Origin: Anaerolineae bacterium
Lineage (GTDB): Bacteria; Chloroflexota; Anaerolineae; Aggregatilineales; Phototrophicaceae
DNA length: 14,045 bases
NCBI GenBank assembly: GCA_028284565.1
Contig: JANQRM010000382.1
Span: 1 to 14,045, forward strand
Direction of reading: 5' to 3'
Part shown: positions 1-14,045 of the stretch, in pieces
How the letters are laid out: every line of letters begins with the position of its first letter
Position numbering within the stretch: position 1 is the stretch's first letter
The notes under the pieces: model-generated
The model's database searches: none
The model's input: only the letters and a program-made list of their open reading frames with translations
What the model was told of the DNA's origin: nothing
Position numbers and translations under genes: made by a program

Positions 1-1
1 C

Positions 2-727: not shown

Positions 728-729
728 TC

Positions 730-1455
730 ATGAAATCGAAAACAATCTTGTGGATACTCATCCTCTCGCTCATCTCCCTGCCCATCAGCGCACAGGATAA
801 TCGGGCTACAGAGACCATCTATGGACTGGTCACGGTGGATAACTCCTTTGTCCGTGTGGGTCCCGATTTTGCTTATACGGCTGTTGGTACATTGCCACTC
901 AATTTCTCTGTTGTGATTTTGGGACGCAGTGGTGACTTTATCAACCGTTGGGATGGTCGTCAGTGGTTGCAGATTGAGTACAACGGCGGACAAGCATGGG
1001 TCTATGCGCGTCTGTTACGCGCGAGCATCGCTTTCAATTCGATACCACCTGTCGGGCGTTTGTTACCGCGTAATCGGGATGGGCGTGTGCCAGAAGGTTT
1101 CGATTTGTCGAGTGATGTCTGTAGCCAATGGCAAGGTGCATTTACCCAATCGGGCAACTTCGAGGCAGGGGACACCGAGATTGTCGTGACTTATCCTACG
1201 CTTCAAGGGGCAAATATTTATAGCGTCATTGTCATTTCACCGACGGGCTTCCGCACACCGTTTGATAGCACGACTGGAACAGCGCGCATTCTACTCAATC
1301 GCTTGCCCAATACTGGTGGAGTCTACACGTGGCGAGTTGCTCCTTATTGGACGGATAGCTTCCGTCGCAATCGCGCGCAACAAGTGTGCCTCTTACAAAC
1401 GGGTGGTATGTTTGAGAAACCCGTCACTGAATTTAATCGTGCCGGTTCGAGATGA
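730..1455 (+). CDS. Secreted SH3-domain protein with C-terminal beta domain
   Basis: This is a 241-residue protein. Residues 1-22 form a signal peptide (Lys-rich start, hydrophobic core, cleavage near SAQD). Residues ~30-100 form a bacterial SH3-like domain with VRVGPDF, WLQIEY and AWVYARLL strands. Residues ~130-225 look like a beta-sandwich, bounded by Cys131 and Cys220, which could form a disulfide after export. The ATG lies 2 nt after the stop of the preceding SH3 gene, and a GGTGGAG sequence at the end of that gene serves as its ribosome site, so translation is probably coupled. No enzyme motif is visible. The likely role is extracellular binding or cell-envelope attachment. The fold call is solid; the ligand is unknown. 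Confidence 0.75.
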   Translation: MKSKTILWILILSLISLPISAQDNRATETIYGLVTVDNSFVRVGPDFAYTAVGTLPLNFSVVILGRSGDFINRWDGRQWLQIEYNGGQAWVYARLLRASIAFNSIPPVGRLLPRNRDGRVPEGFDLSSDVCSQWQGAFTQSGNFEAGDTEIVVTYPTLQGANIYSVIVISPTGFRTPFDSTTGTARILLNRLPNTGGVYTWRVAPYWTDSFRRNRAQQVCLLQTGGMFEKPVTEFNRAGSR

Positions 1456-1542
1456 TTGATTGCATTGCTCTCTGGGATACTAAGTTCTGTTGACATTTCT
1501 AATATTTGTGCGATTTCATGTGCTTTTTGCCCTCGCCGTAAA

Positions 1543-1584
1543 TCCCTCTCTCACTTCGCTCCATTTCGTTTCGATGGAGAGGGA
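1543..1584. repeat. Palindromic CCCTCTC/GAGAGGG intergenic element
   Basis: TCCCTCT (1543-1549) pairs with AGAGGGA (1578-1584). Inside it CCAT (1561-1564) pairs with ATGG (1574-1577) around a TTCGTTTCG loop, so the two stems stack with an 11-nt bulge on one side. There is no T-run after it, so it is a poor intrinsic terminator on the + strand. It resembles the short GC-rich palindromes scattered between genes in many Chloroflexota genomes. Only one copy is seen in this window, so repetition is inferred. Confidence 0.45.
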
Positions 1585-1678
1585 CTCATATGGATTAGAG
1601 AGGACTTCTTAGATTTGTGATATGATTGAATGTGTGCTGAGATAGCTCAATGTTTATTTAGTAGAGACGAAAAAGAAT

Positions 1679-1876
1679 ATGCTGATTAAAAATGATTGCG
1701 ACCATTCTTGGGAATTTGTTGGGAAGAAATCTAGTGGAGGAAAAGATTATGATGTAAGTAAATGCATAAATTGTGGTGAAACAAAAGAATTCTTACTCGG
1801 AAACACTGAAGATGCCGATCGCACTATGGGTTATGAGTATGGACATTGGGGTCCGCGTCAGGATGACGCAGTTTAG
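1679..1876 (+). CDS. Small putative zinc-binding protein
   Basis: This is a 65-residue ORF with Cys7-x-His9 and Cys29-x2-Cys32-Gly, a spacing that could hold one zinc ion (zinc-ribbon-like knuckle). The rest is polar, with an acidic tail and no signal peptide or membrane segment. The ribosome site is weak (only GAGACGAAAAAG before the ATG). The gene sits alone in a patch that is richer in A+T than its neighbours, which may mean recent acquisition or simply an intergenic setting. It is not clearly part of the SH3 operon before it, from which it is separated by 223 nt, nor of the convergent gene after it. The metal-site pattern is what makes it credible; the function is unknown and it could be a chance ORF. 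Confidence 0.4.
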   Translation: MLIKNDCDHSWEFVGKKSSGGKDYDVSKCINCGETKEFLLGNTEDADRTMGYEYGHWGPRQDDAV

Positions 1877-2098
1877 GGAGATTGTCTTTGTGTTGAATTG
1901 CAAATTTCGAGCAACTGTAAAACGTTTACAAAAATGTCGAATAATTCTCGGATATGGTATGAAAATCATAAGAGAAAGTAGGCTCTATGGAGCAATCTTA
2001 TGTTTTTGATACATTATTTATAGCTGGTTTTTACTACCCAGAATATATCTTTTGTGTAGTAAAGTGCGGATCGCCTTTTTATCATCTTATTCAAAAAA
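1877..2098. other. AT-rich convergent intergenic region
   Basis: This 222-nt gap lies between the small zinc-protein gene and the convergent FG-GAP gene. It is A+T-rich and holds no credible gene. A short ORF overlapping it in another frame has no recognisable composition or ribosome site. The only structures seen are weak terminator-like hairpins near its right end. Confidence 0.5.
2061..2080 (+). terminator. Possible weak intrinsic terminator
   Basis: AAAG, a one-base bulge and GCG pair with CGC and CTTT around a GAT loop, and the hairpin runs into a T5 tract on the + strand. The stem is short (7 pairs, three of them G-C), so termination would be weak. It sits between convergent genes, where a terminator is expected. 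Confidence 0.3.
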
Positions 2099-2128
2099 TT
2101 AACCCATTCGGCGAACTGTGATGAATGG
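2092..2128 (-). terminator. Possible terminator of the minus-strand operon
   Basis: On the minus strand CCATTC and GAATGG (2128-2123 and 2109-2104) can form a 6-bp stem with a 13-nt loop over the last codons of the FG-GAP gene. It is followed after 5 nt by a run of six T (2098-2093). The stem is short and the T-run is slightly displaced, so this is only a candidate. Confidence 0.25.
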
Positions 2129-3739
2129 ATTGTCAGAAGGGACATCAATTAACGACACGTAGCCGTCGCTCCAGTGGATTTCTAAGGACTCGACGATGGT
2201 ATCTGAAGGAAAGCCAAAGTGAATTCGGCTTGTATCTCCAGAAAGATACCCACTTGATGATTTAATGTGTCGATAAAAGTTACCGGAGTTGGTCTGCAAA
2301 ATCAGTTCTGTACCAATTGCACGCGAATTAAAGCTGTTGTCCCAAATGACATCGACTTGCAAACTCCTACCACTACAGAGCTGATTCTCAAATAGCTGAG
2401 CCGGATGACGGAGGTTATTGACGACAATATCCAAGTCACCATCATTATCCAAGTCTGCCATACTCATGCCACGCCCACTGGCTGTCGAGGCTAAATTCCA
2501 TTCGGGCATGACGATAAAGTCATTGTTCTGGCTATTCCAGAAGGCTTGGTTCTCTTCGACCAATTCATGATTATCAAGGTGTGCGAACATCGTGAATTCA
2601 ATGAACCCATTCACGATATACAAGTCAAGGAAGCCATCTTGATCCAAATCCCCAAACTTGCCTGACCAGCTCCAACCAGACGCATCAATTGCCATATCCG
2701 CTGCATAATTACCAAACGATTCATCTGGTGTTTTTTGCATGAGCAAAACATTTTCCATAACCTGCGGTTCTGCAGGATTGCGGGCTACATTATGCATCGT
2801 TTCCATGATTGGTTGCCATGCGGACAGAGTCGCTTCATCGTCGTTATAGGGCTTCATATCTGTCGAAAAGAGTTCATTAGTGCCATCGTTATTCAAGTCA
2901 GCAACGTCATAACTCATGGTGCTATGGGTCATCGTCTGGAAAAAGCTGGAAATTTGCCACCTGCCCTCCCCTACCCTCAAATAGAAATAGTCCGGAACGG
3001 CAAAGTCATTACCAACAACAATATCGAAGAAGCTATCGTCATTGATATCTGTGAGAATAATCGCTAGCGCTTGAGCTTCTATTGCCAGCCGTGTTGGGCG
3101 AAACACTCCATCGTCATTTTCATAGTGATAGACTCCCCCACGACCCTCAAGCAAGAATTCTTGTCCATAAGCATCGAGTAAAGCGGCATCATATGAACCA
3201 CCGATAAGGTCGAGGTCGCCATCTTTGTCGGTATCGCCCCATGCAACAGAATAGAGTGGCTCCGCGATGTTCGGGAGAAATAGTTGCTCAAACTGCCCTC
3301 CTCCCAGATTGTGCCAGTATGTAGGTCCGGTGACGGTACGCGTGAAGAAAATATCCTGCCAGCCATCACCGTCCACATCAACAACCGTAACAGAACGCGA
3401 GTCGCCATGTGGGAGGCGTTCCACTTCAAAATTAAGATAGCCCTCGTTCCATAGAATCGAATTCATCCCGCCATGATTAGCAAGCACAATATCCAAATCA
3501 CCATCATTATCGAGGTCGTTGATAGCTACACCACTCCCGTTGGCTTCAAATTGTCGTATCTCATCCCCGCCGGGGGTGGTTGTGATATGGTCGAGGGTGT
3601 GTGTGACGAATTGACCAGAGCAAGATGATTCGCTGACTTCTATACTGAGAGGTTCAACGTCAACAACAACATCCTGAGCCGAGCTAAGGGATGTCAAAAG
3701 CAAGATTAACAACCCAGCGCAATAACGGCGTATTATCAT
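2099..3739 (-). CDS. Secreted FG-GAP/VCBS seven-bladed propeller protein with UnbV/ASPIC domain
   Basis: This is a 546-residue exported protein with a signal peptide at residues 1-22, cleaved near SSAQD. Seven calcium-loop motifs of the DxDxDGxxD type start at residues 75, 121, 169, 231, 281, 364 and 429. The first and last are the textbook DLDNDGDLD; the fourth (DINDDSFFD) and fifth (DLNNDGTNE) are degenerate. Seven repeats fit an integrin-alpha-like seven-bladed beta-propeller. Residues ~470-540 match the ASPIC/UnbV domain (SRAIGTEL, SSSGYLSGD, LEIHWSDG), the arrangement seen in CRTAC1-like proteins. Such proteins are usually extracellular and bind calcium and other proteins or glycans. AGGG 9 nt before the ATG is the ribosome site. 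The gene is the last of the minus-strand cluster, 36 nt after a permease gene, so it may help capture the imported sugar. No catalytic motif is seen. Confidence 0.85.
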   Translation of the reverse strand: MIIRRYCAGLLILLLTSLSSAQDVVVDVEPLSIEVSESSCSGQFVTHTLDHITTTPGGDEIRQFEANGSGVAINDLDNDGDLDIVLANHGGMNSILWNEGYLNFEVERLPHGDSRSVTVVDVDGDGWQDIFFTRTVTGPTYWHNLGGGQFEQLFLPNIAEPLYSVAWGDTDKDGDLDLIGGSYDAALLDAYGQEFLLEGRGGVYHYENDDGVFRPTRLAIEAQALAIILTDINDDSFFDIVVGNDFAVPDYFYLRVGEGRWQISSFFQTMTHSTMSYDVADLNNDGTNELFSTDMKPYNDDEATLSAWQPIMETMHNVARNPAEPQVMENVLLMQKTPDESFGNYAADMAIDASGWSWSGKFGDLDQDGFLDLYIVNGFIEFTMFAHLDNHELVEENQAFWNSQNNDFIVMPEWNLASTASGRGMSMADLDNDGDLDIVVNNLRHPAQLFENQLCSGRSLQVDVIWDNSFNSRAIGTELILQTNSGNFYRHIKSSSGYLSGDTSRIHFGFPSDTIVESLEIHWSDGYVSLIDVPSDNPFITVRRMG

Positions 3740-3775
3740 GAAAAAACCCTAATGGTTGAGTGTATCACGTTGAAT

Positions 3776-4636
3776 CTAACGCCCACCTAGCCCACTCATG
3801 GAGATACCACGGATAAACCATTTTTGGGCAAAGATATATATGATTAACACCGGCACCATCGCCACCACAGCCGCCGCCATCATGATATTCCAGCGTGTAC
3901 CATATTGCCCTTGAAAGGAACTCAAGCCAACCGGAACGGTTTGCATTTCATCGGAATTGGTCACAACGAGGGGCCATAGGAAGTCGTTCCATGTGGTCAG
4001 GAACACCAAGATACTAATCGCGGCGATAGCGGTTTTGCTCATGGGCAGGACAATACTCCACCAAATCCGCAACGAGGTTGCCCCATCGAGACGGGCGGCT
4101 TCGTCCAAATCGAGTGGCAGACTTTTAAAGTGTTGACGAAGTAAAAACGTACTAAATGCCGAAAACGCAGGCGGGATAATCAATGCCCAATAGGTATCCA
4201 GCCAATCCAGCCGATTAACGATGATGAAGTTGGGAACGAGTAGCACTGGAAAGGGAATCATCAATGCTGCCAGATATAAGATGAAGATTTTGTCACGTCC
4301 CTTAAATTTCAATCTGGCAAAGGCAAATGCCGCGAGCGATGAGGTTAATATCTGAATAATGGTGACAGCCGTTGAGACAAATAAGCTGTTCAGATAAAAG
4401 CGGTCAAAGGGCATTGACGTGAGTGCATCTTCATAATTTTCAAACATCAACTCTTCGGGAATCCATGTCGGCGGGAAGGTGAAGAGTTCCGGTGCGGATT
4501 TGAGCGATGTACTTATCATCCAGACAAAGGGTAACAACATAATCAAACTGCCGAGGATAAGCACGAGATGTAACGCTAAATTTCCCCATTTGATGGTTTG
4601 CATCGGTGCGCTACGTTTTCGTTTCACCGTTGTCAT
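3776..4636 (-). CDS. Sugar ABC transporter permease (MalG-type)
   Basis: This 286-residue integral membrane protein has six predicted transmembrane segments (about residues 21-42, 82-105, 116-139, 148-166, 203-224 and 249-270). The cytoplasmic EAA loop, which docks the ATPase, lies at about 179-198 and starts EAARLDGA. The end of the protein (GISMSGLGGR) is nearly diagnostic of the MalG/UgpE group of carbohydrate-uptake family 1 permeases. The start overlaps the stop of the partner permease by 4 nt (ATGA), so the two are translationally coupled and should be made in equal amounts. It forms the channel with the upstream MalF-type subunit and receives sugar from the binding protein two genes upstream. 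The sugar cannot be read from the sequence. Confidence 0.93.
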   Translation of the reverse strand: MTTVKRKRSAPMQTIKWGNLALHLVLILGSLIMLLPFVWMISTSLKSAPELFTFPPTWIPEELMFENYEDALTSMPFDRFYLNSLFVSTAVTIIQILTSSLAAFAFARLKFKGRDKIFILYLAALMIPFPVLLVPNFIIVNRLDWLDTYWALIIPPAFSAFSTFLLRQHFKSLPLDLDEAARLDGATSLRIWWSIVLPMSKTAIAAISILVFLTTWNDFLWPLVVTNSDEMQTVPVGLSSFQGQYGTRWNIMMAAAVVAMVPVLIIYIFAQKWFIRGISMSGLGGR

Positions 4637-5649
4637 GATTCATCCACCTCGTAATGCACCCAGCGTCTTTGCATTTGAAGCTGAACGATTGTAATCATCA
4701 GAATAATCGCAAACAGCACCCACGAGATTGCCGCCGCTGTTCCCATCTTCTGATAACTAAAGGCATTCTGGTAGATGTAATAGACGATGGATAAGGTCGA
4801 TTGGAGTGGGTCTCCCCCGCCAAGACGTGTCATCACAAAGGGTTCAGCAAAGAGTTGGAATGCACCGATCATCTGAATGACGAGCAAGAAGAAGGTTGTC
4901 GGGCTGACAAGTGGGACGGTAATATAGCGGAACCGATGCCAACGATTTGCCCCATCGACTTCGGCGGCTTCATACATGGTTTTGGGAATAGCTTGCAAGC
5001 CAGCAAGATATATCACCATTGTAAAGCCCACATTTTTCCACACAGTTAGCACGGCAACGGTTGGCTTCGACCAGAATGGGTCTGCCAGCCAATTAGGTGG
5101 TTGAATATCCCAGCCAGTTGCTTCAGCAATTTGCCATATCCACGAACTAATTAAGCCAGAGTCTTGATTGAACAACCACTGAAACACGGTGGCGGCGGCA
5201 ACCACATTGGCAACCACAGGCATAAAATAAATGACGCGATATATTCCCAAACCGCGCAATCCCGTATTGAGTGCAACCGCCATCAACAAGCCAATCACCA
5301 ATTGAAGCGGAACAATCGCAATGACATAAAAAACGGTATTGCCCAAGACAAGCGGGAAAATCGGGTCGTTGGTTAAGAGGTCGATATAATTATCTAGCCC
5401 GACAAAGGTGGGGTCATTGGTGAGTCTCCATTCTGTGAAACTCAAGCCCAATGACCCCAAAGCAGGTAAAACGACAAAGAGAATAAAACCAATGAGGCTT
5501 GGTAACAAAAATAAGTAGGCTTCAGATTGTTGGCGTGGATTCCAGCGGTCTAATCCAAAAAATCGACCCAAACCGGTATGTCGCCAACCTTCTTTTTTTG
5601 GTTTATCACTATCAACTGTACTGGAGATAGGTTCGACGGTTGTGTCCAT
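4633..5649 (-). CDS. Sugar ABC transporter permease (MalF/UgpA-type)
   Basis: This 338-residue integral membrane protein has a polar, Lys/Arg-rich N-terminal tail of ~42 residues. Six membrane segments follow (about 44-71, 101-126, 137-159, 197-218, 251-271 and 307-326). The EAA loop at about 227-246 begins EAAEVDGA and ends in VPL, as in MalF-type permeases. There is no large periplasmic insertion, so it is closer to UgpA/MsmF than to E. coli MalF. I see no convincing ribosome site before the ATG, which lies 93 nt after the binding-protein gene, so read-through transcription is likely but expression may be lower. It pairs with the overlapping MalG-type gene. The ATPase is not in this window; a shared MsmX/UgpC-type ATPase encoded elsewhere would be expected. 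Confidence 0.93.
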   Translation of the reverse strand: MDTTVEPISSTVDSDKPKKEGWRHTGLGRFFGLDRWNPRQQSEAYLFLLPSLIGFILFVVLPALGSLGLSFTEWRLTNDPTFVGLDNYIDLLTNDPIFPLVLGNTVFYVIAIVPLQLVIGLLMAVALNTGLRGLGIYRVIYFMPVVANVVAAATVFQWLFNQDSGLISSWIWQIAEATGWDIQPPNWLADPFWSKPTVAVLTVWKNVGFTMVIYLAGLQAIPKTMYEAAEVDGANRWHRFRYITVPLVSPTTFFLLVIQMIGAFQLFAEPFVMTRLGGGDPLQSTLSIVYYIYQNAFSYQKMGTAAAISWVLFAIILMITIVQLQMQRRWVHYEVDES

Positions 5650-5742
5650 GATGGCAATTCAGACTAATAAGACACGAATGAACTGCACGGAGCAGAACGA
5701 GCCTGCCCCACACAGTAAATTGATTGTGACTGAGGAAACGGC

Positions 5743-7029
5743 TTATCTTGGGTAACCATTCTCTGCTAGGAAATCATCAGCAGCGGCACAAATGCTTGCA
5801 ACTGCATCTTCAACTGTTGCTTCACCTGACCAGATGGTTTGCATCCCCGGACCAATAATCGTACCATTCAGTTCATTCCATTCACCGAAAATACCCGTAC
5901 GTCCGACTTTGGCGTTGTTCCCTTCGATGATGAAGGCTTCTTTATTGGCTGGTGGCGAGTCACTCCCTAAAAAGGCGTCGGAATTGGCGGTAGAGCGCAA
6001 TGCTGGCAGAATTTCACCAGAGCGTGTGTAGATTTCTTGCCCGCCATCAGTACTTTGGAGCCAGTTGAGGAAGGTCCATGCCGCATCTTTGTTATCACTG
6101 AATGAACTCATTGTCCATGCCGCACCCCCAGCACCAGCCGAGCGTTGTCCGCCTTCTGGGATCGGGACAACCGCAACATCGTAATTCAGTCCAGCTTCAT
6201 TGAAGATCGGCACTCGGCTAGCGTTCTGGATAATCATGGCGACTTGACCACTTTGGAAGACTGCGGCATCCCCACCTGCTTGGCTGAGGTTGGCATCAGG
6301 CATAGCATGATTGTTGTTCATCATATCCACGAAGAATTGTAGGGCTTCCACAGCTTCGGGTTCAGTCAAGGTACAACGGCTGGGATTAGTCATATCATCA
6401 AGGATACTCCCACCATTTTGACCAATCCACAGTTGATACTTGCCGGCTTCCATGCCAAGTGCATAGCGACTAACACGCCCACTACTGGCAACATCCGTCA
6501 GTTGGTCAGCCGCGGCAAGGAAGTCATCCCATGTCCAATCTTCATTGGGGTATTCCAAGCCCAGTTCATCAAAGATATCGATGTTGTAGTACAGCACTTC
6601 GAGACCAATATCACGGGGGAAGCCGTAAACTTGTCCATCATATATGGCAATATCGAGTAGTCCGGGCCAGAAATCGTCACGGTCAAAGTCGGATGCTTCA
6701 ATGAAAGGATCAAGTGGTTCGAGAACACCATCCGCGGCATAACTGACAACGGGGAACAGGAAGGCAATATCGGGGATTTCGGATGAGTCACCCGATGCCC
6801 AAAGCGTTTGGATCTTGGTGAAATAATCTGCCCACGGTTCGTGCCAGATTTCAATGGTGATGTCGGGGTGTTCTGCCATAAAAGCTTCTGCAACGGATTC
6901 ATGGGTGGCAACTTCTTCTGGACTACCCCAGAACGCCCATGTCACGACGGTATCTTGTGCGGTGACGGAGACAGTCAGCAAGACGAGCATCCAGACACCA
7001 ACGAGAAGAAGACTAAAAAGGCGACGCAT
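5743..7029 (-). CDS. Extracellular sugar-binding protein (SBP family 1)
   Basis: This 428-residue solute-binding protein of a carbohydrate ABC importer has residues 1-25 as a signal peptide, cleaved near TAQD. The family-1 fold follows, with typical stretches such as VVTWAFWG at ~28-35, the WADYFTKIQTLWASG region at ~66-80 followed by PDIAFL, and later AWTFLNWL. Unlike many such proteins in monoderm bacteria, the signal peptide contains no cysteine and so no lipobox. The protein is therefore either free or held by its uncleaved signal anchor. A strong AAGGAG ribosome site lies 7 nt before the ATG, consistent with the high expression usual for binding proteins. It precedes two permease genes. 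The length is usual for the family; the ligand is unknown. Confidence 0.93.
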   Translation of the reverse strand: MRRLFSLLLVGVWMLVLLTVSVTAQDTVVTWAFWGSPEEVATHESVAEAFMAEHPDITIEIWHEPWADYFTKIQTLWASGDSSEIPDIAFLFPVVSYAADGVLEPLDPFIEASDFDRDDFWPGLLDIAIYDGQVYGFPRDIGLEVLYYNIDIFDELGLEYPNEDWTWDDFLAAADQLTDVASSGRVSRYALGMEAGKYQLWIGQNGGSILDDMTNPSRCTLTEPEAVEALQFFVDMMNNNHAMPDANLSQAGGDAAVFQSGQVAMIIQNASRVPIFNEAGLNYDVAVVPIPEGGQRSAGAGGAAWTMSSFSDNKDAAWTFLNWLQSTDGGQEIYTRSGEILPALRSTANSDAFLGSDSPPANKEAFIIEGNNAKVGRTGIFGEWNELNGTIIGPGMQTIWSGEATVEDAVASICAAADDFLAENGYPR

Positions 7030-7114
7030 AGGAAACTCCTTAAATATGAAAATTGTTAGGATTAGTTTAACGGATTTTTATCGAATATTCATTACATGCT
7101 TCTAATTTCTCATC

Positions 7115-8449
7115 TCATGATGGTCCACCTCCGGGGTGAATGGTGAAGTCGTTATTCTCTGCCAAGACGGCTGATTCAGGTTTGAGACGCAAAATCTCAT
7201 CGAAAAAGGGCGTTGAACCCGATGTCACACAGGCATGGGCATACAGATACATTGAGGCAGACCATGCTTGTTGGTCAAAGCCCATGGGATGTCCCGTATC
7301 GCCGTGCATCCATTCATTAAAGCCCCATTTGCCATCTGCCCCTTCTTTACAACCCTTTGCTAGTAAACATAGAATACGCTCGGCTTCATCAAACCACTGA
7401 TGCCGAACCAATGAGGCGACATGGAATCCACCCACCATCAACCAAATTCCCCCATTGTGATATTGGTGGGGCAAATTCAGATTCCGACTGCGGAAGTACT
7501 CACGCCAATCCGCTTCGCCGGGGTAAATCGGTGGATAAATGGCTTTGGATGGATAGGGTTCGCTGATGTTAACCTGATACATATAGCGCAAGATATGTTC
7601 TCGGCGGTGTCCATCCGCTATGCCTGTCAAAATTGCTAGACAGTTCCCCAACGTGTCGCACCAGTCCCCATATTCACGGAACGCCACCCATGGCAGATAG
7701 TAAGGTCGGCTCGAAATCGTCCCGATATTATGATAGAGCATGAACCATTCCAATCTGATGGCTTTCAAGCGTTCCAGATGCTCTGCAAAATGGTCTGCAA
7801 TCCAGCAACGGTCAATCCACATCAGCAAATTCAATCGTTCATGAATATCTGCAGGTAGATTGATAAGGTCATGGACGGGCTGGGTATTACTCATCACTTT
7901 CGCCATGGCTTCGTAGGCTAAGGTCACAGCGAAGTAGAGCGCATTGTCATAAAGAGTATTATAGCGTACCGAGACCAAATCCATCCAATTGGCGGCTTCG
8001 GGTATTTCGAGCAAGCCACATTCATTCATATCTTGGTATTCAAGCCATTGAATCGCTTTGGTAATCGTGTGCCAGTATTCGCTGAGGAATTGTGTGTCTT
8101 GAGTGGCGATATAGTACATATAATGGGTGAGGATATACCAGAGATTGGCATCCATCGCGCCTGCATTTTCGGTGCTGATATAACCACTATCCGGGTTCAC
8201 ATTGAGGGGAATTAAGCCACGTTGGGTCTGATGGTTGCCGAGAGTATCTAAACTCGCGCGGACACAATCAATCAATTCCTGATTTTGGTCGGCAATTGCG
8301 CCCAATGCTGTCACGCCCATATCCCTCGCCCAGACCTGTGGATAGCCTGTGGATAAGCCCGACGCACGAAAGCCGGTTCGTGTTGTACACTTCAACAAGG
8401 TTTCAACCGCTTTATCATAGGCAGTTGCGAGCAACTTGTCCTTTTTCAT
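7115..8449 (-). CDS. (alpha/alpha)6-barrel glycoside hydrolase, GH100 invertase-like / amylo-1,6-glucosidase-like
   Basis: This 444-residue protein has no signal peptide, so it is cytoplasmic. Several blocks match the (alpha/alpha)6-barrel glycosidases: QVWARDMG at ~38-45, NWMDLVSVRYNTLYDNALYF at ~154-173, HQYHNGGIW at ~328-336, and NEWMHGDTG followed by QQAWSASMYLYAH near 378-405. The layout recalls GH100 neutral/alkaline invertases, where an Asp in MIDRRMG is the general acid and a Glu near the C-terminus the base. By that comparison Asp157 and Glu379 are the likely catalytic pair. Debranching-type amylo-1,6-glucosidases and GH63-like enzymes share the fold and cannot be excluded. A strong GGGGGAG ribosome site precedes the ATG. 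It lies 27 nt after a PIG-L gene and before the sugar importer, so it probably cleaves the imported glycoside. The substrate is unknown. Confidence 0.65.
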   Translation of the reverse strand: MKKDKLLATAYDKAVETLLKCTTRTGFRASGLSTGYPQVWARDMGVTALGAIADQNQELIDCVRASLDTLGNHQTQRGLIPLNVNPDSGYISTENAGAMDANLWYILTHYMYYIATQDTQFLSEYWHTITKAIQWLEYQDMNECGLLEIPEAANWMDLVSVRYNTLYDNALYFAVTLAYEAMAKVMSNTQPVHDLINLPADIHERLNLLMWIDRCWIADHFAEHLERLKAIRLEWFMLYHNIGTISSRPYYLPWVAFREYGDWCDTLGNCLAILTGIADGHRREHILRYMYQVNISEPYPSKAIYPPIYPGEADWREYFRSRNLNLPHQYHNGGIWLMVGGFHVASLVRHQWFDEAERILCLLAKGCKEGADGKWGFNEWMHGDTGHPMGFDQQAWSASMYLYAHACVTSGSTPFFDEILRLKPESAVLAENNDFTIHPGGGPS

Positions 8450-8476
8450 GACTCCCCCTCAACTCACTTGAGTATT

Positions 8477-9340
8477 TTAACCCCCATCAACAGCGACGTT
8501 CTCGAACAAATCTGATTCGTCTACTTTATTATGTATTGGCGTTGGATAGACACGAGTATAGCCCTGCTGACTCATAAATCGTTTTCGATACCACATGGGT
8601 AAGGTCACAAACCGTCCACGGAGTTGGCTTTTGTGGCAAATATTGGCTTCGTCCCACGCTTCCAAGTAATCTCGTAAGTCTATTTTAGCGTGAATCGGTT
8701 CGATATGTTCCAGAATCTTGAGCAAATCAATATCCTTGTTGTTACCTACCTTACGTGGATTTCTGCCTTTGAGTAGCGCATTGATAATCCGCCATCTGAC
8801 CATCCCTTTTGAGGAACTGGTGAAGTAGAGTTTTTGTGGTTGATAAGGTAGTGAGTTGGTGACATAACTTGCATCATTGGCGATATCCCATGCCGAGCAA
8901 GTGGCTTGATTCATCGCAATATGGTCGGGGTGTCCATAGCCCCCATAGCGATTGAAGGTGACGATAACTTGTGGTCGCACGTCCCGAATGACTTCGACGA
9001 TGCGTCGTGTCACATTTGCAGGTTCATGATTCCAAGTCCACCATAAACTAGCGGGGTCTTGCGAGGTGTCGCTCCCCATCATCCCGCTGTCTTTGAAGCC
9101 AAAGGTAAACACTTTTTTGAAGTTCAATTTCTGGACCGCACAGTCGAGTTCACTCAGACGCAGTTCGGCAACAGATTCATATTGCCCGTTCATCGCATCG
9201 GGTATCGTCCCCACATCGCCATTTGTCGCGCAAATCAAATACACTTCAACACCCTTCTCGACGAGTTTGGTGATGATGCCCCCCATCCCAAAACTTTCAT
9301 CATCAGGATGAGCAAAACAAATCAGCAGGCGTTTTCCCAT
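8477..9340 (-). CDS. PIG-L / LmbE family zinc deacetylase
   Basis: This 287-residue cytoplasmic enzyme has the two family motifs: AHPDDE at residues 10-15 and HPDH at 137-140. The expected zinc ligands are His11, Asp14 and His140, with Asp13 as catalytic base. All are intact, so it should be active. Family members remove acetyl groups from N-acetylglucosaminyl compounds (GlcNAc-PI, mycothiol and bacillithiol precursors, diacetylchitobiose, antibiotic intermediates). It is the first gene of the minus-strand cluster, 27 nt ahead of a glycosidase gene and upstream of a sugar importer, so an N-acetylated sugar or glycoside substrate is plausible. Role in bacillithiol/mycothiol-type synthesis is an alternative, but no glycosyltransferase lies nearby. 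The family is certain and the substrate open. Confidence 0.88.
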   Translation of the reverse strand: MGKRLLICFAHPDDESFGMGGIITKLVEKGVEVYLICATNGDVGTIPDAMNGQYESVAELRLSELDCAVQKLNFKKVFTFGFKDSGMMGSDTSQDPASLWWTWNHEPANVTRRIVEVIRDVRPQVIVTFNRYGGYGHPDHIAMNQATCSAWDIANDASYVTNSLPYQPQKLYFTSSSKGMVRWRIINALLKGRNPRKVGNNKDIDLLKILEHIEPIHAKIDLRDYLEAWDEANICHKSQLRGRFVTLPMWYRKRFMSQQGYTRVYPTPIHNKVDESDLFENVAVDGG

Positions 9341-9373
9341 ATTTATGTACCTTGTGTGAAGTAAACTCCTTAA

Positions 9374-9402
9374 TAAATAACCGAAGAGTTACATGCTGAC
9401 AA
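9374..9402 (-). promoter_or_regulatory. Possible promoter of the minus-strand PIG-L/glycosidase/transporter cluster
   Basis: On the minus strand TTGTCA (9402-9397) and TATTTA (9379-9374) are separated by 17 nt, a fair match to a sigma-70-type promoter. It would start transcription about 25-30 nt before the PIG-L ATG. The whole region is A+T-rich, so the -10 is not unique. Confidence 0.4.
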
Positions 9403-9452
9403 GCGATAGATGGGCTAGAGGTGGTTAGAGCCTTGTGATGTTCTGCACAATT

Positions 9453-9481
9453 TTGACACCCCCTACCCCACTCGTTATTAT
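9453..9481 (+). promoter_or_regulatory. Promoter of the thiolase-like/DUF35/dhaK operon
   Basis: TTGACA (9453-9458) and TATTAT (9476-9481) are separated by 17 nt, a near-consensus sigma-70-type promoter. Transcription would start near 9488, leaving a leader of about 35 nt with no strong ribosome site before the ATG at 9523. An AAATTT core with flanking inverted bases (TAAATTTA, 9495-9502) sits just after the predicted start and might bind a regulator. Confidence 0.6.
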
Positions 9482-9522
9482 TGACCTGTTCGATTAAATT
9501 TATTGTGTAGATTGTTTATTTC

Positions 9523-10722
9523 ATGAGTCGCTTGCCTGTCGTCGTTGGAGTTGGACTCACACCCTTTTCCTCCAATCGTGTGGATAGTAATAGTCGTGAC
9601 CTTGTAGCCGAAGCGGTGTTGGATTGTCTGGCTGATGCAGGAATGGATCATCTCAATGCTGTCGAACATGGCTTAACCAGCTACGAAAGCGACCACTTCA
9701 ATCGTCAGATGACATTGGGTGCAATCCTCCATGACACCATCGGGCTGACTCCCCTGCCGAATGTGCGTGTAGAAGGTGGTGGCGCAACGGGAGCCTTAGC
9801 TCTTCGTACCGCATGGGCATATATTCAAAGTGGCTTATGTGATTCGATCCTTGTCTATGGATGCGAAACGAATGGACGGAGTGTTTCCTCGCAAACGGCT
9901 AATCAACTCTTTGCCCTCTCCGCTGATGTCGATTGGGAGATGATGGTTGGTGGGACGTACACGGGCTTCTATTCGGCGATGATTCGCGCGCATATGGCAA
10001 CATATGGCACAACCGAGGAGCAATTTGCTCATGTCGCTGTACGCAATCGCCACAACGCCCAATACAATCCCATCGCACAAAAACCCATGGACATCACAAT
10101 TGATGATGTGATGCGATCTCGACCCGTAGCAGAACCGTACAAATTGCTGGATTGCAGTCTGCTAAGTGATGGTGCGTCCGTTATCCTTTTAGCAACGGAC
10201 GAATGGGCGAGAGCAAATTCGCCAAAATATGCAGAACGTCCTTGCGTCTGTTACATCTCCACTGGATGCGGAACTGACACGATGCGTCTCGGAGACCGCT
10301 ATCCTGACATCATGAATTTTCGTGGAAAACGCTACGCCGCCCAACAAGCTTACAAAATGGCGGGCATTGAGCATCCTATGCAAGCGATTGATGTCGCCGA
10401 ACTCTATGACAGCTATAGTGGGGTCGAGATTCAAGCGGTAGAAGACTTAGGATTTGTTGAATATGGCGAAGGCGGAACGAGCATCGCGGATGGCACATTC
10501 GACCTTGATGGTGCGCTACCCGTGAATACAAGTGGCGGGTTACTCGGACGAGGCGCACCGGTTGGCGCAACTGGCATCGTCCAAGCGGTTGAAATCTGTC
10601 AGCAACTATGGGGCGAAGTCGATGAGAGACGACAGGTTAAGGACGCTCGTCGTGGACTCACGGACACCCATGCTGGAGTAGGGACGATTTGTGTAGTCAA
10701 CATATTTGAACGGCGAGATTAA
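9523..10722 (+). CDS. Thiolase-fold protein lacking the catalytic Cys and His (SCP-x/Ltp2-like)
   Basis: This 399-residue protein has the thiolase two-domain fold; its length and blocks match SCP-x/archaeal-type thiolases. However, the nucleophilic-cysteine block, usually VExACASG, reads VEGGGATG at 83-90, with Gly87 where Cys is expected. The C-terminal GHPxGATG block reads GRGAPVGATG at 342-351, with Ala345 for His. The usual ELHDxF motif reads ELYDSY at 294-299. The C-terminal GxG region (385-387) has no Cys in the classical place. Normal Claisen thiolysis is therefore unlikely. The family's Ltp2 branch also lacks thiolase catalytic residues, uses tyrosines, and performs retro-aldol cleavage with a DUF35 partner; the next gene, 3 nt on, is DUF35. 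The best guess is an aldolase-like or acyl-transfer enzyme acting with it. The substrate is not known. Confidence 0.8.
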   Translation: MSRLPVVVGVGLTPFSSNRVDSNSRDLVAEAVLDCLADAGMDHLNAVEHGLTSYESDHFNRQMTLGAILHDTIGLTPLPNVRVEGGGATGALALRTAWAYIQSGLCDSILVYGCETNGRSVSSQTANQLFALSADVDWEMMVGGTYTGFYSAMIRAHMATYGTTEEQFAHVAVRNRHNAQYNPIAQKPMDITIDDVMRSRPVAEPYKLLDCSLLSDGASVILLATDEWARANSPKYAERPCVCYISTGCGTDTMRLGDRYPDIMNFRGKRYAAQQAYKMAGIEHPMQAIDVAELYDSYSGVEIQAVEDLGFVEYGEGGTSIADGTFDLDGALPVNTSGGLLGRGAPVGATGIVQAVEICQQLWGEVDERRQVKDARRGLTDTHAGVGTICVVNIFERRD

Positions 10723-10725
10723 CAG

Positions 10726-11253
10726 ATGACTGAACAAATCCAGAGTAAAATAGACACCCAGATTGTCGACAATCCATTGGATATAGACTCCGATGCGTGG
10801 GCAGATTTCCGGCAAATCGAGCGTATCACCCTCGAATTGACTCAATCCTATAAACACAGCTTAGGTAAATACTCACACTTCTTCATCGAATTAGAGAATG
10901 GTCGCTTCTTTGGAACGAAATGCCTCGATTGCGAAAAGGTCTATGCCCCACCCCGCCCACTCTGTCCCGATTGCCTTAGTATCACCCGATGGCACGAACT
11001 CTCTGGAGAAGGCACACTCGAAACGTACTCCATCCTCCACTTCTCACCCGGAAGCAATGGCGATGTGCAAGCCTTAGACACACCTTATATTTTCGCTTAT
11101 GTCTTGCTCGACGGTGCATCGACTCTCTTTCCGCACTTGCTCAAAGCTGACATCAATCAAGTTGCGATGGGGATGCGCGTAACGGTACACTATGTCAATC
11201 ATTCGGTTCACCACCCAATACATTTGATGCACTTCATCCCACTGGAAAACTAA
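10726..11253 (+). CDS. DUF35 zinc-ribbon/OB-fold protein, partner of the thiolase-like protein
   Basis: This 175-residue protein has an N-terminal acidic, probably helical extension (1-45), followed by the DUF35 arrangement. A rubredoxin-like zinc ribbon uses Cys66, Cys69, Cys80 and Cys83 (CLDC ... CPDC), and an OB-fold covers ~90-175 (GEGTLETYSIL, PYIFAYVLLDG, GMRVTVHY). DUF35 proteins form complexes with thiolase-superfamily enzymes, where the OB-fold contacts the CoA and the zinc ribbon bridges subunits; examples are archaeal acetoacetyl-CoA thiolase/HMG-CoA synthase and Ltp2 aldolases. It starts 3 nt after the thiolase-like gene and its stop overlaps the next start (TAATG), so the three genes should be made together. 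The N-terminal extension is longer than in minimal DUF35 proteins. Confidence 0.88.
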   Translation: MTEQIQSKIDTQIVDNPLDIDSDAWADFRQIERITLELTQSYKHSLGKYSHFFIELENGRFFGTKCLDCEKVYAPPRPLCPDCLSITRWHELSGEGTLETYSILHFSPGSNGDVQALDTPYIFAYVLLDGASTLFPHLLKADINQVAMGMRVTVHYVNHSVHHPIHLMHFIPLEN

Positions 11254-12269
11254 TGGCGATTCGCAAAAAGAAACTCATCAATGCCCCCCAGAATATCCTT
11301 AGTGACATGCTCAACGGCTTCGCACAAGCCTATGCCGATATTGTGCGTCTCACAGATAATGGCTTAATAGTCCGTCGCAAACCCAAACCCCAAGGCAAAG
11401 TCGGCTTGGTCATCGGTAACGGCAGTGGACACGAACCCGCCATGATTGGCTTAGTCGGCGAAGGCTTGTTCGATGTCAACATCCCCGGAGAGATTTTCAC
11501 TGCCCCCGGACCAGAACGTATTGTCGAAGGCATCCGAGAAGCAGATAGAGGCGCAGGGGTATTGGTCTGTGTGTCACACCATGCGGGTGATTTGATGAAT
11601 GCTGAACTCGCCCTCGAACTCTGTGAAGCCGAGGGAATCGAAAATGTCGAGATGGTGGTGCTTTATGATGATGTATCCAGCGCACCCAAAGGCAGTGAGC
11701 CAGAACGACGTGGGACAGCGGGCTTGTTCTTTGTCTGGAAGATGCTTGGAGCCTACGCCGAAACAAGCAGTGATTTAGCCCAGACCAAAGCGATGGCAGG
11801 GAAAATCCGAGACAATACTCGCACCTTAGCAATGGCATTGAGTCCCTGTGCCAGTCCCATCACAGGTGAAGCGATGTTTGAACTCGGCGAGGACGAAATT
11901 GAAATCGGCATGGGCGTTCATGGGGAGATGGGCATGGGACGACAGAAACTCGTCACTGCCGATGAAACCGTGGATTTGATGCTACCACACATTGTCGAAG
12001 ACTTGCCTTTTGTAGAAGGCGATGAAGTCCTCGTGATGCTTAACAACAGTGGCAGTTTGACCTTGATGGAGCTATTCATTCTTTACAATCGTGTTGCACA
12101 ACGTCTGCAAGAAGCGGGAATCAAAGTCTACAAATCGTGGATTGGTCCGTATGCCACCACGCAAGAGATGGCGGGATTTGCCATTTCACTCTGTCGGGTT
12201 GATGACGAACTCAAAGCCCTCTGGGATGCACCCGCCAACGGCGCGAATCTTAAGCAGGTTGGCACTTGA
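11253..12269 (+). CDS. dhaK: Dihydroxyacetone kinase-type substrate-binding subunit DhaK
   Basis: This 338-residue protein (E. coli DhaK has 356) binds a short ketose covalently through a histidine for phosphorylation by DhaL. Key sites are present: GNGSGHEP (His60), AGD (Asp113) and GVHGEMG (His223, the residue forming the hemiaminal with the substrate). The loop before Asp113 reads VSHHAGD instead of the usual VKNYTGD, so substrate contacts differ. Related kinases act on dihydroxyacetone, glyceraldehyde or erythrulose. Translation is coupled to the DUF35 gene by a TAATG overlap. The partner DhaL is not next to it but beyond a GntR gene on the other strand. No DhaM phosphodonor gene is seen, so either ATP is used directly or DhaM is elsewhere. 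The family is certain; dihydroxyacetone as substrate is not. Confidence 0.9.
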   Translation: MAIRKKKLINAPQNILSDMLNGFAQAYADIVRLTDNGLIVRRKPKPQGKVGLVIGNGSGHEPAMIGLVGEGLFDVNIPGEIFTAPGPERIVEGIREADRGAGVLVCVSHHAGDLMNAELALELCEAEGIENVEMVVLYDDVSSAPKGSEPERRGTAGLFFVWKMLGAYAETSSDLAQTKAMAGKIRDNTRTLAMALSPCASPITGEAMFELGEDEIEIGMGVHGEMGMGRQKLVTADETVDLMLPHIVEDLPFVEGDEVLVMLNNSGSLTLMELFILYNRVAQRLQEAGIKVYKSWIGPYATTQEMAGFAISLCRVDDELKALWDAPANGANLKQVGT

Positions 12270-12287
12270 GCGAACTCATAGGGATCA

Positions 12288-12980
12288 TCATGATTGAATA
12301 GATTGAGGAGATTCTAGTGCTTTCAGCGCACGAATCCTAGATGCTTCTAAGTGGTTGAGCAAAACAGCATTGAGTCGGTCTGGCGATTGATCGAATAAGG
12401 CATCAAAGAGTTGTTCATGCTCAAAATGGATCGCTAGCAGTTCATTATGACGGTAGCGTGGCAAAATGCTCAGCATCTGCGTATGAACATTCATCTGCTG
12501 AAATAACTTGAGCATCTGGGGCGTTCCGCCTTTGATAATAAACCGTTCATGCATTGCTTGGTCAAGCTGAATATATTCATCAAGAATATTAGACCAATTT
12601 TCATTCGCTTGAGAGACTAGGTCCTGCATGCGTTCTCGAATCTGATCAAAAAACTCAAAATCACTGGGTTCTAAGTATTTAAACAAACACAATGACACAT
12701 AAAGTTCTAGAGCGCTACGAATCTTGTAATTTTCTTCAAGACGAGCAGAATCGACAATTGCAATGAATGTTCCACGTCGGGGTTGGACGTCAACCAGTCC
12801 TTCATTCTGGAGCAGTGTAAGGGCATCTTTCAAGGGTGTGCGACTGACCTGAAATTCGACCTCCAGAACTTTCAAATCAAGCTGTTCACCGGGATGAAAT
12901 CGCTGGTTAAGAATATCTTGACGCAACAAATCATAAACGGTATTGCTTAAAGTAACCAAAGTATCAGGCTGTAAATCCAT
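12288..12980 (-). CDS. GntR-family transcriptional regulator with FCD ligand domain
   Basis: The protein has 230 residues from the ATG at 12980; a TTG one codon earlier is possible and fits the GGAG ribosome site slightly better, though that site is distant in both cases. Residues ~10-74 form the GntR winged helix (FHPGEQL, VSRTPLKDAL, QPRRGTF). Residues ~84-220 form an all-helical FCD domain with the likely metal ligands Asp140, His144, His188 and His210. FCD regulators usually sense small organic acids or sugar acids. The gene is divergent from dhaL and convergent with dhaK (18-nt gap). Two identical palindromes in the shared intergenic region are the natural operators, so it probably represses itself and dhaL until its ligand appears. 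It is very likely the local regulator. Confidence 0.9.
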   Translation of the reverse strand: MDLQPDTLVTLSNTVYDLLRQDILNQRFHPGEQLDLKVLEVEFQVSRTPLKDALTLLQNEGLVDVQPRRGTFIAIVDSARLEENYKIRSALELYVSLCLFKYLEPSDFEFFDQIRERMQDLVSQANENWSNILDEYIQLDQAMHERFIIKGGTPQMLKLFQQMNVHTQMLSILPRYRHNELLAIHFEHEQLFDALFDQSPDRLNAVLLNHLEASRIRALKALESPQSIQS

Positions 12981-12997
12981 CAATTTTGAACAGTCTC

Positions 12998-13009
12998 CTG
13001 AAATTTCAG
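12998..13009. promoter_or_regulatory. Operator 1, CTGAAATTTCAG (GntR gene side)
   Basis: This is a perfect 12-bp palindrome, identical to a second copy at 13142-13153. It lies 17 nt after the -10 of the predicted GntR promoter, about +11 to +22 of the transcript, and its edge overlaps the CAGGAG ribosome site of the GntR gene. Bound regulator would block the gene's own expression. It is likely a site of the adjacent GntR/FCD protein. Confidence 0.7.
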
Positions 13010-13026
13010 TTCATTAATTTGTCGTA

Positions 13027-13055
13027 AACATACCCTATTGTGATGGATTTATCAA
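13027..13055 (-). promoter_or_regulatory. Predicted promoter of the GntR gene
   Basis: On the minus strand TTGATA (13055-13050) and TATGTT (13032-13027) are separated by 17 nt. The predicted start is near 13020, giving a leader of about 40 nt that contains operator 1. Confidence 0.5.
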
Positions 13056-13095
13056 TGATAGAGGGCTGAAATTGGGCATTGAATCGTCGATATTC

Positions 13096-13124
13096 TTGAC
13101 AAAGTTTGGGATTGTGTTCATAAT
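13096..13124 (+). promoter_or_regulatory. Predicted promoter of dhaL
   Basis: TTGACA (13096-13101) and CATAAT (13119-13124) are separated by 17 nt, one base from consensus in total. Transcription would start near 13131, leaving a leader of about 157 nt that carries operator 2 and a 33-codon ORF. Its -35 lies 40 nt from the -35 of the opposing GntR promoter. Confidence 0.7.
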
Positions 13125-13141
13125 CTGTTCAGAAATTCCAT

Positions 13142-13153
13142 CTGAAATTTCAG
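13142..13153. promoter_or_regulatory. Operator 2, CTGAAATTTCAG (dhaL side)
   Basis: This second perfect copy of the 12-bp palindrome starts exactly 17 nt after the dhaL -10, the same offset as operator 1 from its promoter. Nearby TTCAGA (13128-13133) forms a further inverted repeat with the TCTGAA that begins this site, and a half-site CTGAAATT lies at 13066-13073; these may be weaker contacts. It is likely bound by the adjacent GntR protein to repress dhaL. Confidence 0.7.
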
Positions 13154-13189
13154 TTATAAAGATTATTTAAGTCATTTTGAGCATACACA

Positions 13190-13291
13190 ATGAGAGAACG
13201 AGGCATACAGGCTTTTTATTGGCAAGCAATATCTCTCTTGTCTCACTTAATTTGTTGCAACATCTACTTTCCCAAGCAGGTTGCCTCATGA
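13190..13291 (+). CDS. Possible leader ORF overlapping the dhaL start
   Basis: An ATG at 13190 opens a 33-codon frame (starting MRERGIQAFYW, ending FPKQVAS) whose TGA overlaps the dhaL ATG as ATGA. The overlap would couple translation of dhaL to that of the leader. No clear ribosome site precedes it, only an A+T-rich stretch after operator 2. The peptide is moderately hydrophobic and resembles nothing I know. It could be a chance frame in a long leader; the exact 4-nt overlap is the only positive sign. Confidence 0.3.
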   Translation: MRERGIQAFYWQAISLLSHLICCNIYFPKQVAS

Positions 13292-13917
13292 GTGAACTCA
13301 CCGGAACACTCACTGCAGAAATGATTCAAGCGATTCAGCAAATAATCAGTAATTCTAAAGATGAACTCAATCAACTCGACTCCGCATTAGGAGATGGTGA
13401 TCATGGGACAGGTATCAGCACCGCCCTAGAAGATGCCAGCCAAAAAGTTGCCGAACTCAACTCCCCTACCCCAACCGATGTTTTTAAGACAACTGCCCTC
13501 TCGTTGATGAATCGCATGGGTGGCGCATCGGGTGCATTATTCGGCACGCTCTTCTTAAAGATGAGTACTACCACTAAAGACAAAACTGTCTTGTCTCATA
13601 CTGATTTTGCGTCGGCACTTCAAGCCGGAATCGAAGGCGTGAAACAACGCGGTAAATCAGACTTAGGCGATAAAACCATGCTCGATGCACTCATCCCAGC
13701 CGGAGAAGCGTTTGCTGAAGCCGATAATTTTATGAATGGATTTCAATCGGCGATGTACGCATCACAAAACGGAGTCGAGCAAACTCGTGACATGGTTGCG
13801 AAACATGGACGCGCTAAATTCATCGGCGAGCGTGCAATTGGACATCCTGATGCTGGGGCGACCTCAGTGGCAAAAATGTTTCAAGCCATCTACGATTATT
13901 GGGAAACGAGAAATTAA
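13288..13917 (+). CDS. dhaL: Dihydroxyacetone kinase-type nucleotide-binding subunit DhaL
   Basis: The protein has 209 residues from the ATG at 13288, which has AGCAGG just before it and gives the normal DhaL length of about 210. A TTG at 13177 would add 37 unconserved residues and is rejected. The nucleotide/magnesium site LDSALGDGDHG at 30-40 holds the Asp triad Asp31, Asp36 and Asp38. GGASGALFG (78-86), GDKTMLDAL (127-135) and HPDAGATS near 196-203 complete the family pattern. DhaL carries ADP/ATP and transfers phosphate to the ketose bound by DhaK. Here it is separated from dhaK by the divergent regulator gene, with its own promoter and operator. A possible sugar-isomerase gene follows 3 nt after its stop. 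The family is certain. Confidence 0.92.
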   Translation: MSELTGTLTAEMIQAIQQIISNSKDELNQLDSALGDGDHGTGISTALEDASQKVAELNSPTPTDVFKTTALSLMNRMGGASGALFGTLFLKMSTTTKDKTVLSHTDFASALQAGIEGVKQRGKSDLGDKTMLDALIPAGEAFAEADNFMNGFQSAMYASQNGVEQTRDMVAKHGRAKFIGERAIGHPDAGATSVAKMFQAIYDYWETRN

Positions 13918-13920
13918 TTT

Positions 13921-14045
13921 ATGGTAAAGTACAAGTTACGGGTCGGATACGTTGGGGTTTCCATTGCGTCCTACTTCGCATCAGAGCATCAAACACGTGA
14001 ACGCGCCATTGAGGGACTCACTAAACTTGCTGAGACCCTCGACTT
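13921..14045 (+). CDS. Possible sugar isomerase (L-fucose/L-arabinose isomerase-like), 3'-truncated
   Basis: An ATG 3 nt after the dhaL stop opens a frame that runs off the right edge, so only about 41 residues are seen. It starts VKYKLRVGYVGVSIASYF and continues with a charged helix. A short beta strand, a glycine-containing turn and then an aromatic and a helix resemble the N-terminal Rossmann-like start of FucI/AraI-type isomerases. The evidence is thin and another alpha/beta enzyme is possible. The tight spacing with dhaL argues for one transcript. If it is an isomerase, it could supply the ketose that DhaK/DhaL phosphorylate. Confidence 0.4.
   Translation, partial: MVKYKLRVGYVGVSIASYFASEHQTRERAIEGLTKLAETLD

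Follow-up and report, generated by a model that had tools for sequence, protein, structure and literature searches.

The DUF35-bound thiolase-fold aldolases that we found described take steroid side chains as their substrates. Their catalytic motif is given as Y-D-x-[FY] (YDHF in Ltp2, YDCY in Sal) in PMC12329534, which groups with them TbSLP (YDCF), a protein reported to decarboxylate malonyl-CoA at a very low rate. How does a protein of this fold in a carbohydrate locus compare with them? Here we examine one, encoded beside a DUF35 gene in a 14,045-nt stretch from an Anaerolineae bacterium (GCA_028284565.1, contig JANQRM010000382.1, positions 1 to 14,045; hereafter the window, meaning this whole stretch). 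On balance, and with some reserve, we favor the reading that the DUF35-bound protein is a Cys-independent, retro-aldolase-type lyase that acts on a small polar acyl-coenzyme A (acyl-CoA) in furanoside catabolism. The two genes are as follows.

9523..10722, plus strand: thiolase-fold protein, 399 amino acids, with Gly87, Tyr295-Asp-Ser-Tyr298, Ala345 and His383 at the active-site positions
10726..11253, plus strand: DUF35 partner, 175 amino acids, with a zf-ChsH2 domain (rubredoxin-like zinc ribbon) and an OB_ChsH2_C domain (OB fold); CxxC...CxxC is present

Active site of the thiolase-fold protein

The open reading frame at 9523-10722 matches the Pfam models Thiolase_C_1 (121 bits) and Thiolase_N above their cut-offs and Thiolase_C below its own (24.5 vs. 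27 bits). An initial annotation of this DNA had held that the fold is kept while the thiolase Cys and His are lost. Indeed, the predicted model of the product keeps the thiolase fold, with a predicted local distance difference test (pLDDT) score of 91.8, and phmmer alignments to solved thiolases show a Cys block that reads VEGGGATG, YDSY in place of HDCF and GAP in place of GHP. In terms of positions, Gly87 is equivalent to the nucleophilic Cys, Tyr295 to the HDxF His, Ser297 to the HDCF Cys and Ala345 to the GHP His; alignments to 17 more distant relatives likewise support the placement of Gly87, Tyr295 and Ala345, and the replacements read at these three sites in the initial annotation are thereby borne out. 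The nucleophilic Cys, the HDxF His and the GHP His of degradative, biosynthetic or SCP2-type thiolases are all absent, and on these residues an ordinary thiolase is ruled out; the loss of thiolase chemistry expected in the initial annotation is thus supported. A decayed pseudogene is also ruled out, as the frame is open and homologues of 70-84% identity exist.

Among the best 120 of the 3786 homologues of the window protein (E<=1e-60), a list that includes the protein itself, G87, Y295, A345 and H383 are all invariant (120/120). A tblastn search of plasmids brought up a 40% identical orthologue on plasmid pW43B of Parasedimentitalea marina, with the motifs VEGGGASG, YDSY, GQGAPVGATG and DTHGG. 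The best 120 of its 618 homologues (E<=1e-80; the orthologue itself included) come, where the organism is named, from Alphaproteobacteria, mostly of marine genera, or from unplaced bacteria. In this alphaproteobacterial set, G87 and Y295 are each found in 120/120 and A345 and H383 each in 119/120, the exceptions being a single Ser and a single gap. Throughout the set, Glu55 and Asp57 are retained (120/120), as they are in 9/9 aligned Chloroflexota-type rows. Ser297 is Ala in 22/120 and Tyr298 is Phe in 16/120 of the same set; because they vary, both are unlikely to be catalytic. A Cys nucleophile elsewhere in the active site, an eventuality raised in the initial annotation, is not evident among the aligned cysteines of the protein: C211 is ruled out because it is also present in five ordinary thiolases aligned, and C106 and C249 because they are missing from three aligned alphaproteobacterial rows.

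A survey of 400 genomes from the phylum of one member gave 19 matches to the protein at E<=1e-60. Two had 78-79% identity (one of them the center genome, with its known locus), and the 17 others, at 35-39%, are all ordinary thiolases with Cys, HDC and GHP. The search for related loci returned 27, of which 26 have 70-83% identity and are titled Chloroflexota or groups within it, except for one Candidatus Fraserbacteria bin; locus L026 has 40%. A maximum-likelihood tree was built from 35 rows (8 and 9 of the 240 homologues from the two lists, L026 and the 17 thiolases). It joins the Chloroflexota-type and alphaproteobacterial sets (96/95), sets the 17 thiolases apart (100/99) and places L026 next to the joined sets, with a long-branch warning that includes L026. 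Since the near homologues share Gly, Tyr, Ala and His while the 17 distant relatives have Cys, HDC and GHP, we conclude that the family is closely knit and has an active site of its own.

The protein of L026 is a PRK06365-type thiolase-domain protein (NF004982; 2485-3846) with a DUF35 gene next door (3860-4405). It has in common with the window protein VEGGGATG, in which Gly takes the place of Cys, and the HAG-loop His, yet its HDAY and GHP are intact and it lies outside the clade. This combination suggests that Gly and His preceded Tyr and Ala, the branch of L026 being a long one. Proteins of the L026 type are possibly an intermediate or a third functional group.

The likeness to DUF35-bound aldolases that the initial annotation drew is supported, with corrections. 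The DUF35 partner and YDx[FY] where thiolases have HDCF (Y295-D-S-Y here) are shared with the Ltp2-ChsH2(DUF35) steroid C3 side-chain aldolase (6ok1), also of thiolase fold with its catalytic Tyr in Y294DHF, and with the CtSal-Shy(DUF35) bile-acid aldolase (9myr; YDCY there, YDSY here). The equivalence of Y295 to the Tyr of Ltp2 and Sal was drawn through the HDCF of zebrafish SCP2-thiolase and a statement in PMC12329534. What fails to carry over is the second catalytic residue: Ltp2 Tyr344 corresponds to Ala345 (by spacing) and Sal Cys304 to the variable Ser297, as does Ltp2 His296. Consequently, the acid/base partner must differ, and the invariant His383 is, from its conservation, the best candidate substitute. 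Identity in fold alignments is 27-28% to Ltp2, which sits among steroid genes rather than in a sugar operon, and 24-25% to CtSal.

The surrounding operon

The pairing with DUF35, also claimed at the outset, proved general: the DUF35 gene adjoins the thiolase-fold gene in 29/30 loci, and the remaining one, L002, stops at its contig end. Downstream in the window lie the following genes; the DUF35 stop and the DhaK ATG overlap at 11253 (TAATG).

11253..12269, plus strand: DhaK-type kinase subunit, by profile matches
12288..12983, minus strand: GntR/FCD transcriptional regulator between dhaK and dhaL, by profile matches
13177..13917, plus strand: DhaL-type kinase subunit, above the TIGR02365 cut-off; the start of the open reading frame is perhaps too far upstream

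Elsewhere in the window, on the minus strand, are a divergent sugar-type ABC transporter within 3776-9340 (binding protein at 5743-7029, likely permeases at 3776-5649), a GH100/GDE-like protein (7115-8449), a PIG-L deacetylase (8477-9340) and an FG-GAP repeat protein with an ASPIC/UnbV domain (2099-3739).

Gene content was counted by tblastn in 30 loci, namely 26 of the 27 related loci, the window and three alphaproteobacterial plasmids; L026, with 40% identity and HDAY, was deliberately excluded. The thiolase-fold gene is present in 30, DUF35 in 29, DhaK in 27, DhaL in 25 and an isomerase-like gene in 24. An ABC ATPase follows in 23, a solute-binding protein in 21, a nucleoside-hydrolase-like protein in 17, a LacD-type aldolase in 14, a CoA-transferase III in 13, and an MFS protein (Chloroflexota type) and an aldehyde dehydrogenase (ALDH) in 12 each. 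Less frequent are PNP-like (10), ADP-ribosylglycohydrolase-like (9), epimerase (8), AMP ligase (3) and GH42 (2) genes. One of the 12 ALDH matches (L047), one of the 14 LacD matches (L013) and one ATPase match (L003) are on the opposite strand and probably do not belong to the operon; L047 ends before it reaches the nucleoside hydrolase gene of P. marina, and the 17 counted do not include that gene. In the three loci that lack DhaK (L001, L002, L018) the contig end comes first, the six without the isomerase-like gene, the window included, stop at, before or just past DhaL, and L005 and L009 have no DhaL at the usual place. The GH42 galactosidase is within the operon at L006:4503-6701 and L012:4530-6728, one found by scan and the other by similarity. 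A phosphotriesterase-family gene is near the operon at L003:1391-2434.

The carbohydrate rather than steroid setting noted earlier is reinforced by a second phylum, as operons of this type, with an unchanged active site, occur both in Chloroflexota and in marine Alphaproteobacteria, in the latter on plasmids of Marinovum algicola, Paracoccus seriniphilus and P. marina. Identity between the phyla is 59% for ALDH, 53% for the nucleoside-hydrolase-like protein, 43% for DhaK, 32% for the isomerase-like protein and 28% for LacD; comparison of the two MFS proteins found no similarity. The binding protein exceeds the NF008633 cut-off in both phyla (one protein each). For the YnjB transporter, the available parts of the literature searched yielded no substrate. 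An AMP ligase is present in 3/3 alphaproteobacterial loci and a CoA-transferase in 13/27 others, and this co-encoded means of CoA activation speaks for a CoA ester as the substrate of the thiolase-fold enzyme.

Several of these enzymes offer clues to the substrate. DhaK and DhaL domains with the substrate-binding His are present, and the canonical KNYxGD Lys is absent: the window DhaK (338 bits vs. a TIGR02363 cut-off of 406) retains His in GVHGE and Asp in GD and has Ser for this Lys (SHHAGD). Across the two phyla (the window and 24 other loci), Lys is Ser and Tyr is His in 25/25, whereas the solved DhaK chains aligned have Lys at this position. With these changes, the kinase substrate is probably something other than plain dihydroxyacetone. 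The nucleoside-hydrolase-like family (L050:32624-33730, L008:5629-6708 and others) carries DTDxxNEIDDQ and has Ser for the AEFN Glu in 13/13 aligned; in known nucleoside hydrolases this Glu contacts the 5'-hydroxyl. From its sequence, the protein is likely a furanoside hydrolase of altered specificity. The isomerase-like protein (about 480 amino acids; L050:26821-28242, L009:12734-14191) had no Pfam match, and its sole NCBIfam match was to the sulfoquinovose isomerase SftI (127 bits, cut-off 700). Its model (pLDDT 78.2) resembled L-arabinose isomerases (TM 0.66-0.74, 6-7 Å root-mean-square deviation), then fucose and D-arabinose isomerases.

A proposed lyase and its possible place in a pathway

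From the computed fold, the residue changes and their conservation, and the gene set, we infer the lyase activity, the roles of Tyr295 and His383, the order of steps and the substrate. The thiolase-fold enzyme would no longer form a Cys-acyl intermediate; the fold is kept, and presumably also the CoA tunnel and the oxyanion hole. Tyr295 would be the base, like Ltp2 Tyr294 and Sal Tyr302, and His383, beside the oxyanion-hole position, would protonate the enolate. The substituent on the alpha carbon of the acyl-CoA would thereby be split off; a shorter acyl-CoA (acetyl- or glycolyl-CoA) would result, accompanied in the plain case by a carbonyl product. The CoA ligase (Alphaproteobacteria) or CoA-transferase (Chloroflexota) would supply the acyl-CoA. 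The pathway would comprise import and hydrolysis of a furanoside, isomerization of the sugar and phosphorylation of a keto compound by the modified DhaKL kinase; a LacD-type aldolase and ALDH are also present in many operon members. On our best reading, small polar acyl-CoA would be a substrate class new for the thiolase fold, much as the initial annotation had thought possible.

Several observations weigh against this proposal. Sequence and fold scores favor archaeal thiolases over Ltp2 and Sal: NCBIfam lipid-transfer models scored 70-200 bits vs. 342-352 for PRK06064/PRK06365, and the top scores fell to the archaeal acetoacetyl-CoA thiolase of the thiolase/HMG-CoA synthase complex (6esq/6et9) and the Pyrococcus thiolase (7yvy), which have the Cys and both His that are lacking here. 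Because of these scores, the aldolase-like traits may have an origin separate from that of Ltp2 and Sal. A MaoC-type hydratase, the usual partner of steroid aldolases and a domain of the CtSal system, was not seen among the operon proteins scanned. Finally, in 12 genomes, mostly picked for a locus without ALDH or LacD, an ALDH of 67-70% identity was found in only 2/12 (G004, G412); 8/12 had only 43-45% matches and 2/12 none at E<=1e-100. A LacD-like protein was found in 12/12, with best matches of 37-48% identity and, in one, an internal stop. With ALDH so patchy, the evidence does not settle on a single pathway order. The kind is defined by Ltp2 and Sal, and we regard the present enzyme as a variant with another catalytic pair, possibly a separate origin and a non-steroid operon.

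Where, then, would the lyase act? Three of the accounts weighed here differ in order and substrate within our proposal; a further one denies it. The first, which we think quite possible if somewhat short of probable, has the lyase act last, on a CoA ester from a C5-modified furanoside. Hydrolysis, isomerization, C3-epimerization and C1 phosphorylation would precede LacD-type cleavage to dihydroxyacetone phosphate (DHAP) and X-CH2-CHO; X-CH2-COOH would then be made and joined to CoA, and X removed by the thiolase-fold enzyme. Formally, this order parallels sulfo-EMP glycolysis, which uses sulfoquinovose isomerase, a 1-kinase and the YihT aldolase. The common logic is that a sugar modified at its terminus passes through an isomerase, a kinase and a class I aldolase; here the kinase family is different, and a CoA step and a thiolase-fold lyase are added. 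Every conserved enzyme gets a step, and the gene order epimerase-DhaL-DhaK-aldolase-ALDH on 2/3 plasmids (the third is without ALDH) is in keeping with it. So are the SftI match and L-arabinose isomerase fold of the isomerase-like protein, the matches of the aldolase to LacD and YihT, the Glu-to-Ser change at the 5'-hydroxyl contact of the hydrolase and the Lys-to-Ser change in DhaK. However, the five-gene core (thiolase-DUF35-DhaK-DhaL-isomerase) stands without a nearby ALDH or LacD in 10/30 loci, 10/12 genomes checked have no close ALDH, LacD identity between the phyla is only 28%, and an ordinary 5-hydroxy pentose would end as glycolyl-CoA, with nothing to cleave.

That bare core in 10/30 loci is the chief argument for a second order, which we consider doubtful, in which the lyase acts first on an aldonyl- or 2-deoxyaldonyl-CoA such as 2-deoxyribonyl-CoA. 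The products would be acetyl- or glycolyl-CoA and glyceraldehyde, and the isomerase would turn the latter into dihydroxyacetone for DhaKL. A CoA-bound precedent exists in deoxyribonate catabolism: in Klebsiella michiganensis, deoxyribonate is proposed to proceed via deoxyribonyl-CoA to acetyl-CoA and glyceryl-CoA (PMC6365646). Yet this order leaves the epimerase and LacD aldolase idle, the altered DhaK active site speaks against plain dihydroxyacetone, and the need for a dedicated triose isomerase is not obvious.

We judge it unlikely that the protein is no lyase at all, being instead non-catalytic, or an acyltransferase or decarboxylase homologue (for example a malonyl-CoA-type decarboxylase like TbSLP, or a scaffold for DUF35). 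The canonical catalytic residues are gone, and the slow decarboxylation reported for TbSLP, which shares the motif group, makes YDx[FY] compatible with a decarboxylase. Nevertheless, both characterized aldolases carry YDx[FY] as well (PMC12329534), Y295 and H383 are conserved in both sets of homologues, with E55 and D57 in the 9/9 and 120/120 rows, and a scaffold would not need such conserved new residues.

Poorer still are the chances of a third order, in which apionyl-CoA is cleaved like the tertiary alcohol of Ltp2 to dihydroxyacetone and glycolyl-CoA, and DhaKL makes DHAP. The chemistry is direct, the DhaKL genes adjoin, and apiofuranose, which has no 5'-hydroxymethyl at C4, fits the altered nucleoside hydrolase. 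Against it, the isomerase, epimerase and LacD aldolase are without a role, DhaK has its Lys-to-Ser and Tyr-to-His changes, and no apiose-named gene is among the families found, in a scan that included no search aimed at such genes.

Similarly slender is the case for algal arsenosugars (5-deoxy-5-dimethylarsinoyl-ribosides), with dimethylarsinoylacetyl-CoA as the ester cleaved. To our knowledge, among nameable natural 5-modified ribosides, only the type with an electrophilic group such as As(V) suits the lyase chemistry after the order in which the lyase acts last; were that order true, the arsenosugar would be the nameable natural 5-modified riboside whose CoA ester could lose its substituent. 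After hydrolysis, isomerization and C1 phosphorylation of the riboside, cleavage of the C3-C4 bond would yield DHAP and dimethylarsinoylacetaldehyde. Oxidation of this aldehyde would give dimethylarsinoylacetate (DMAA), whose CoA ester would be the substrate of the thiolase-fold/DUF35 enzyme. This enzyme would break the carbon-arsenic bond in a retro-aldol-like hydrolysis that expels the acetyl-CoA enolate, and the dimethylarsinate left over may be exported by the MFS protein. The MFS gene overlapping the thiolase-fold gene in the alphaproteobacterial loci (L047, L049, L050) has ArsK, for arsenite efflux, as its best NCBIfam match in 3/3, far below the cut-off (75-102 bits vs. 400) and with a lactate transporter second in two loci. 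Conversely, the Chloroflexota MFS is of another type, two loci carry the GH42 galactosidase, and the title of at least one record (L022) names groundwater. No arsenic gene turned up among the operon families, where no search was aimed at such genes, and the available parts of the literature searched gave no arsenosugar degradation genes for this step. In a digestion model with human gut bacteria, an arsenosugar was not turned into dimethylated arsenic products (PMC6656958).

Plain ribose or glycolaldehyde routes were rejected, as they leave the lyase without a cleavable bond, and 5'-deoxyadenosine and methylthioadenosine routes were rejected by reasoning, since their acyl-CoA has no electrophilic group to lose.

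Significance of the family

The open-access literature searched, outside which lie most subscription journals and bioRxiv, held neither a DUF35-bound thiolase-fold aldolase in sugar metabolism nor a description of this operon, which looks like an apparently undescribed sugar-breakdown operon common to distant bacterial groups. It points to an unrecognized furanoside pathway in little-studied bacteria. A conserved Tyr/His version in two phyla would suggest that the thiolase fold became a lyase more than once, and the proposed activity, if true, would be a CoA-dependent way to split polyol-type acids. Because the operon is plasmid-borne in named alphaproteobacteria, the proposal is directly testable.
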